45,089 nucleotides of DNA from a virus, in IMG/VR virus record IMGVR_UViG_3300042305_000698, positions 1-45,089 of that record. The stretch is one strand, 5' to 3'. Both the position numbers and the translations under genes were made by a program. Shown here one piece after another: positions 36,152 to 36,990 of the stretch (positions are counted from its first letter, which is position 1; each line of letters opens with the position of its first letter). The notes beneath the pieces were generated by a model. That model was not told the DNA's origin. It worked only from the letters and a program-made list of their open reading frames with translations, and ran no database searches.

Positions 36152-36212
36152 GCGGCATCGCGGCGGGGGTAACGTGTTACTTCTGCGTATGCGGGCAGTC
36201 AAAGGAGGTTCC

Positions 36213-36326
36213 ATGATCGACATCGAAAAGTTCGACATGTATCTGCAATACAGGTATGTGTGGAAGACATATCACACCGATCCGTGGGATGTGCTGTGGG
36301 CGGCACTCCACTTCGCGACCGTCTAG
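36213..36326 (+). CDS. 37-residue early protein; first gene of the plus-strand cluster
   Basis: A 37-residue protein with many aromatic residues, MIDIEKFDMYLQYRYVWK then WDVLWAALHFATV. The ATG follows AAAGGAGGTTCC, a perfect ribosome binding site. It is too short to assign, and the C-terminal 12 residues are hydrophobic but not a clear membrane segment. Its TAG overlaps the first base of the hammerhead ribozyme, so translation to the end would displace the first ribozyme stem. Confidence 0.6.
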   Translation: MIDIEKFDMYLQYRYVWKTYHTDPWDVLWAALHFATV

Positions 36327-36377
36327 GCCGAAACCCGGGCAACCGGGTCTACCCGTGATGCGGGTACTGATGAGGCC
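36326..36377 (+). ncRNA. Type II hammerhead ribozyme (self-cleaving)
   Basis: All elements are present and consecutive. Stem II strand GGCC (36326-36329); GAAA core (36330-36333); stem III CCCGG/CCGGG with GCAA loop (36334-36347); U16.1 and C17 (36348-36349), making the GUC triplet with G36347; stem I UACCCG/CGGGUA with UGAUG loop (36350-36366); the invariant CUGAUGA (36367-36373); stem II strand GGCC (36374-36377), which pairs with the first. The open stem is II, the arrangement called type II, which is common in bacteria and phages. Cleavage is expected between 36349 and 36350. Stem II has only four pairs and no clear extra loop-loop contact was identified, so rate cannot be judged. Confidence 0.9.
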
Positions 36378-36393
36378 AACCTATGGAGGTTCC

Positions 36394-36735
36394 ATGTCGA
36401 AAGTGGATCACTCCCTAGTGGTGATGGCAGCTCTTGCGGAGCCGCTGGCCAGGCTGCGGGCAGCCGGGAATCTTCCCGTGCCGTCCGATGAGTTGGCTGT
36501 GCGGGCCGTCCGTGGCTGTATCAACACCAAGACGGGAGCATGGCGGGCGACCAAGCCTGCCGACGATGAGGCCGGGCTGCTCTGGCAGTTGGTCAAGTTT
36601 CACCGCTCGGGCGGCAGTCTTTACGGCTGGCCGTTCTTTGCAGACGAGCGGCTGCGGGATGAGTTAGACACGCTGGCAATCGTATTGCTGGGCGGGTCGC
36701 GTGCGGCCAGCGAATGGCAGCGCGTGTTGGGTTGA
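36394..36735 (+). CDS. Early phage protein, 113 residues, unknown
   Basis: Start ATG at 36394 follows GGAGG (36385-36389). The protein is helical with SLVVMAALAEPLARLRAAGN, an AVRAVRGCINTKTGAWRATKP segment and a C-terminal helix ERLRDELDTLAIVLLGG. No family is recognised. Because its 5' untranslated region would begin at the hammerhead cleavage site (36350), its mRNA would carry a 44-base leader with stem I of the ribozyme. Confidence 0.6.
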   Translation: MSKVDHSLVVMAALAEPLARLRAAGNLPVPSDELAVRAVRGCINTKTGAWRATKPADDEAGLLWQLVKFHRSGGSLYGWPFFADERLRDELDTLAIVLLGGSRAASEWQRVLG

Positions 36736-36990
36736 CGGGATTCGATCCCGGGCAGGTGGCTGCGGCAATCGGGCGAACGCCCAAGTAAGTCCGAATGCTG
36801 CCTGCCCGGGTTCGGTTGCCGTTTCTGCGGTGTCCGAATAGCCCCCTCTGGGCTGCCATATCAACGCCACCGAATATCGCAAGATAGGGTCGGTGGGGCC
36901 AACTGCCTAGCAGCGGCGGAAGGCATACGCCCCAAATATGCCAGAGGGTGCTATTCGGCTGCCGTTCGGTAGCCATTCATGGAGGTGCGT
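36736..36990 (+). other. Gene-free stretch with nested inverted repeats: structured RNA or origin candidate
   Basis: No gene with acceptable start is seen. Elements: CGGGAT/ATCCCG around TCG (36736-36750 region); CCCGGGCAGG (36747-36756) and CCTGCCCGGG (36801-36810), perfect ten-base arms enclosing GGGC/GCCC with GAAC loop (36771-36782); an 18-base inverted pair with one mismatch, CCGAATAGCCCCCTCTGG (36834-36851) and CCAGAGGGTGCTATTCGG (36941-36958); an inner pair CCACCGA/TCGGTGG (36867-36873, 36890-36896); and a direct repeat TTCGGyTGCCGTT (36811 and 36954). Density of repeats suggests folding RNA, operators or an origin. Confidence 0.5.

Follow-up and report, generated by a model that had tools for sequence, protein, structure and literature searches.

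The beginning of the rightward gene set in the record of an uncultivated phage (IMG/VR record IMGVR_UViG_3300042305_000698, positions 1 to 45,089) raises the question of whether the short segment between its first two small genes specifies a self-cleaving RNA and, if so, what such an RNA would do for the phage. The window hereafter means the whole stretch of DNA analysed, 45,089 nucleotides in length. It carries leftward terminase, portal and structural genes, and a rightward set of small genes begins at about 36213; judging from the gene layout only, the latter are presumably early. The terminase is only about 24% identical to those of named phages, and comparison of the region at the DNA level with named phages and plasmids gave no match. 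Pfam and PHROGs searches with the two small flanking proteins were likewise without a match; homologues of the 37-aa ORF occur in other phages at 57–75% identity. The leader preceding the first rightward gene takes the form GTAACG..TTAC followed by GCRYATGCGGGCAG in relatives that lack the element, and is probably the promoter/operator with the start of the transcript. The features of the region are collected in the table below.

Table. Features of the hammerhead locus and its flanks (window coordinates).
Feature	Position	Strand	Basis or remarks
Conserved leader, near-palindrome GTAACGTGTTAC then GCGTATGCGGGCAG	36169–36198	+	In nearly all relatives just before the first rightward gene
Upstream gene, 37 aa, no known family	36213–36326	+	Homologues in L008, L013, L020
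Type II hammerhead ribozyme, complete	36326–36377	+	Sequence, Rfam RF02276, shuffles, covariation in relatives
Stem II, 5' strand GGCC	36326–36329	+	Pairs with 36374–36377; first base is the last of the upstream TAG
Core G12 A13 A14 and A15.1	36330–36333	+	Invariant across alignment A1 (GAA = 36330–36332, A15.1 = 36333)
Stem III, 6 bp, GCAA loop, U16.1 at its end	36333–36348	+	3 pairs changed on both sides in relatives
C17, immediately before the predicted cut	36349	+	C in 119/124 same-layout elements, among the matches listed
Predicted cleavage site	between 36349 and 36350	+	Sequence
Stem I, 6 bp, loop I G-UGAUG-C (GUNANGC motif)	36350–36366	+	3 pairs changed on both sides
Core CUGAUGA	36367–36373	+	Invariant across alignment A1
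Stem II, 3' strand GGCC, then A (36378)	36374–36377	+	Sequence
Shine-Dalgarno-like GGAGG of the downstream gene, 3' of the ribozyme	36385–36389	+	Sequence
Downstream gene, 113 aa, no known family	36394–36735	+	Homologues about 60–86% identical

Positions 36326–36377 of the plus strand read GGCC GAA ACCCGG GCAA CCGGGU C / UACCCG UGAUG CGGGUA CUGAUGA GGCC, the slash marking the predicted cut. The hammerhead core (CUGANGA ... GAA-A15.1 ... U16.1-H17, with three junction stems) is present, stems I and III are closed by loops, and stem II, of 4 bp, is open, which is the type II permutation. Stem I is formed by UACCCG and CGGGUA around the loop UGAUG, with a possible extra U-G pair (6–7 bp), and in stem III positions 36333–36338 pair with 36343–36348 around GCAA. 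The initial annotation had placed all of the core bases in order at this site, which proved correct to the base; its 6-bp stem I and its 4-bp GGCC/GGCC stem II are both present, and its cut between 36349 and 36350 agrees with the sequence. It had described stem III as 5 bp with a GCAA loop: the loop stands, and the stem becomes one of 6 bp when the obligatory A15.1-U16.1 pair is counted. The element indeed overlaps the stop codon of the upstream gene (TAG, 36324–36326, one base in common) and ends 16 bases before the next start codon (ATG, 36394), and the earlier view that a chance origin is very unlikely is borne out by 500 dinucleotide shuffles of the whole window, which gave five loose matches and none equally good. 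With a simple descriptor exactly one element was found in the 45,089 bases.

Folded in isolation, the element adopts the secondary structure of a hammerhead (-25.7 kcal/mol, z -2.8). When folding is predicted for all 231 nt of the leader, the centroid retains the hammerhead, although in the minimum-energy structure the 5' strand of stem II finds another partner; so far as these models go, the longer leader would partly compete with stem II, a point against activity.

The Rfam model Hammerhead_II (RF02276) matches the element end to end (33.8 bits, E 8e-7 for the 45-kb record). The covariance scan to which the initial annotation had pointed thus gave a clear match, although the gathering score of 37 bits was not reached. 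The homologous element in L015 scores 39 bits, above that value, and the cutoff was passed by four of about 31 similar elements of the 4-bp layout from 19 loci. Since the cutoff reports so few of its kind, the sub-threshold score of the window element is accounted for, and the gathering score is therefore a curation threshold and not a structural feature. Annotation by this score will overlook most elements of the 4-bp layout in phage genomes. We regard the window element as very likely a type II hammerhead.

Relatives were gathered through homologues of the 113-aa gene and of the 269-aa gene that follows it, which yielded about 45 viral contigs. RF02276 matched at E 0.01 or better in 11 of the 42 full records examined, ten of them with the same kind of element and one with a weak match (0.0015), and in related phages the element lies in the same, presumably early, region. 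Every core base is kept in an alignment of ten elements, the window's included; six pairs of stems I and III are changed on both sides and 99.3% of the cells are paired. The covariation score of 0.286, compared with 0.101 in shuffles, was reached by none of 500 shuffles, nor by slid structures. The covariation which the initial annotation had looked to in stems I–III is thus present in two of them, I and III; the third, stem II, is nearly constant in this close set and so receives no covariation test there. Loss of core bases in relatives which keep the flanking genes, named by that annotation as evidence against the element, was not seen: there is a whole intact element or nothing.

Since the element is a complete, non-chance hammerhead lying in the sense orientation between two conserved genes, a cut in their joint transcript is to be expected. 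Taking identity and function together, we think it probable, from sequence evidence, that this is a genuine type II hammerhead whose main role would be co-transcriptional cutting of the mRNA of the rightward operon. The initial annotation had suggested a part in mRNA processing or timing; the evidence favours the former and lends no support to the latter. Cleavage at 36349/36350 would divide the nascent RNA into a short message for the 37-aa protein and the rest of the operon. The first product would end soon after the stop codon with the stem III hairpin and a 2',3'-cyclic phosphate; the second, carrying a 5'-OH, would open with the stem I hairpin some 44 nt ahead of its start codon and leave the ribosome-binding site free. 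The two ends would be hard targets for 5'-phosphate-sensing and 3'-to-5' nucleases. In bacterial RNA decay both such ends should resist the main entry routes, and the two messages could therefore have separate lifetimes.

About 30 other relatives lack the element wholly, and not through decay. A model built from homologues found no remnants or degenerate copies in the 30 relative loci without an obvious element, its two matches being the window itself and an intact copy in L101. This all-or-none presence argues for gain or loss of a unit, and the element is evidently dispensable for the phage group, since about 30 relatives do without it, which tells against the role proposed above. Its neighbours are variable. 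The upstream unit is usually a small ORF of 36–55 aa, differing among the window, L005, L088 and L096; elsewhere it is a much shorter ORF or nothing (L014, L032 and L093, with nothing in L032) or another structured RNA (L015). The gene next to the element on the downstream side also differs among phages (L005, L013 and L014), and in relatives without the element the leader runs directly into the ribosome-binding site of the 113-aa gene. With both sides varying, the element travels with the boundary and not with one particular gene.

Such a pattern might be expected if the ribozyme, although active, had been selected as a conserved junction for the swapping of small-gene cassettes, its near-identical DNA acting as a seam for recombination where the early region is hypervariable, and cleavage mainly rendering any inserted gene transcript-neutral. 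The exchange of units on either side, and the direct joining of the leader to the 113-aa gene where no upstream cassette is present, are both in accord with this. We nevertheless consider it quite unlikely, for the compensatory changes in stems I and III preserve pairing rather than DNA identity, and the element is missing from L008 and L020, although both possess a homologue of the window's 37-aa gene. Cutting of the operon mRNA remains the reading that we prefer.

Other features of this region deserve mention in their own right. At about 4420–4480 of L014, as at the corresponding place in L016 and L093, the position of the 37-aa gene directly before the hammerhead is taken by an ORF of only 8 codons, with a TTG start and a good ribosome-binding site, together with a G/C-rich segment; this may be a leader peptide or a further RNA element. 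The window has a structured RNA module between its 113-aa and 269-aa genes (36826–36960, GUCCGAAUAGC ... GCUAUUCGG-C-UGCCG, MFE z -3.3), of which about 10 relatives keep the basal stem around a highly variable interior; 8 of 24 consensus pairs are changed on both sides and 19 of 234 cells are non-standard. A second structured module (36733–36826, CGGGAUUCGAUCCCGGGCAG ... CUGCCCGGGUUCGGYUGCCGU, MFE z -5.0) recurs in relatives, again with a variable interior. The two have the 3' motif UUCGGYUGCCG in common, L008 appears to hold three such modules in tandem, and Rfam searches with each of the two modules gave no match.

The placement of the element was compared with that of other viral type II hammerheads. 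A pattern scan of viral contigs with the window's stem II sequence returned at least 119 stretches, and 84,980 genomes of bacteria and archaea yielded only 16 matches to the same pattern; for comparison, a further set was collected with another stem II seed. After removal of near-duplicates there were 206 elements among the matches listed. By a mechanical ORF test (at least 40 open codons), which makes the stop and start fractions approximate, 87 of the 118 elements of the window's layout among the matches listed have an upstream stop codon between -6 and +3 relative to their first base (antisense control 9/118; 200 nt upstream 6/117), and a ribosome-binding site with a start codon follows within 70 nt downstream in 83 of the 118 (controls 2 for antisense and 11 for 200 nt upstream). 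The commonest stop arrangement among the matches listed, with 33 cases, is a TAG sharing its G with the first base of the element, exactly as in the window. Elements of the other layout obey the same rule, with approximately 41 (stop) and 51 (ribosome-binding site and start) of 64 among the matches listed. That most viral copies begin at an upstream stop codon and precede a ribosome-binding site is an observation added here.

As the TAG and stem II have a base in common, GGCC-GAAA would lie under any ribosome terminating at this stop codon, and folding and cutting might be delayed until the first gene is free of ribosomes. Such gating by translation is attractive, but speculative and unproven, and the tight packing of phage genes would yield the same adjacency to the stop codon. 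The start of the element is closely tied to the upstream stop and its distance to the next start varies, as one would expect of an element which folds and may cleave, but matters because it stabilises or terminates the upstream message, the stem III hairpin serving as the mRNA 3' end right after the stop codon and any downstream effect being incidental; L020, moreover, has a plain hairpin after the same gene. We hold this to be very unlikely: a plain hairpin would suffice for that purpose, yet the catalytic core is intact, a position directly ahead of a ribosome-binding site is strongly enriched as well, and no terminator-like site, be it an intrinsic terminator or an attenuator, was found at the element. 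Finally, a non-functional look-alike or chance assembly, to which the score below the Rfam gathering score might be thought to point, is scarcely credible given the shuffles (0/500), the E-value of 8e-7, the covariation and the strong context rule.

Two further observations arose from the viral elements. Long arrays of type II hammerheads between successive genes, in keeping with the cutting of operon mRNA, occur in L099 (nine or more copies), L292 (10 matches), L306, L256 and L246. The motif AUCAG is found in the first 16 nt after stem II in 28 of 97 viral type II hammerheads, where shuffling predicts 1.3, its carriers including L100, L116, L120, L124, L127, L148, L156 and L173; it could pair with the core CUGAU to give a competing hairpin (CUGAU-GAGGCC-AUCAG). 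The window element is without AUCAG.

The type II elements fall into two layouts in which the length of stem II is coupled to the type of loop I. Elements with a stem II of 2–3 bp have a long loop I, and complementary runs of at least 4 between loop I and tail number 58, against 38 with swapped tails. Where stem II has 4 bp, the segment enclosed by five pairs of stem I usually measures exactly 7 nt. The association was strong (32/15 versus 0/62, Fisher p 2e-16) in a GC-seeded set, the search pattern of which fixed neither stem II length nor loop I. Among the matches listed, loop I in the window's layout is GUNANGC, with the U present in 121 of 124 elements, and the base after stem II is an A in 93 of 124. 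No pseudoknot of 4 bp or more from loop I to the 3' tail is present in the window element, where the longest complementary run is 3, and such runs show no excess over swapped tails in its layout as a whole. Associations of loop I with the first tail base emerged when mutual information between the two segments was computed; as these rest on few exceptional, possibly related sequences, we claim no mapped loop I-tail contact. The sequences suggest that the window's layout docks by non-Watson-Crick contacts, and without a defined loop contact cleavage could be slow at physiological magnesium. Put together, there would be a second, distinct natural layout, in which stem II has 4 bp and is followed by an A, loop I is a rigid GUNANGC, and docking involves no Watson-Crick pseudoknot. 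It would be anchored to a stop codon so that translation termination gates self-cleavage, and would be mostly missed by the Rfam cutoff. We offer this combined proposal tentatively, as possible but doubtful.

Perreault et al. (2011; PMC3088659) reported the first natural type II hammerheads and their frequency in bacteria, together with intergenic phage examples and clusters flanking prophage genes, and proposed that hammerheads divide long phage transcripts into mRNAs the length of an operon or a gene; comparable tandem prophage hammerheads, of unspecified layout, cleaved in vitro and in E. coli. The paper also mentions many hammerheads without a pseudoknot and plots pseudoknot frequency against stem II length (PMC3088659), so the second layout may be partly known. 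The window element is an addition to the phage type II hammerheads known since 2011, and an incomplete literature search found no functional follow-up in phages. What is gained is a well-supported phage hammerhead, with covariation and a clean pattern of presence and absence; thanks to the stop-to-ribosome-binding-site rule and the division into two layouts, the idea of mRNA processing can be put to the test with defined constructs.

The window element is like RF02276 and the elements of Perreault et al. (PMC3088659) in its core, in its circular permutation (stem II open, stems I and III closed) and in its phage or prophage intergenic setting, with sometimes several elements per operon. In the published consensus (PMC3088659) stem II is short, with 2 bp in the Rfam alignment, and loop I forms a pseudoknot with the 3' tail; the window's layout, in contrast, combines a stem II of 4 bp with a GUNANGC loop I of 7 nt and shows no excess of pseudoknots. 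The type I and type III hammerheads of viroid and satellite RNAs have the same catalytic core and a different open stem. They process rolling-circle RNA genomes, whereas the window element stands as a single copy in a DNA phage operon; a viroid-like or circular-RNA reading of this record was rejected on the grounds of that single copy and of the terminase and portal genes. The tobacco ringspot satellite hammerhead also has a stem II of 4 bp.
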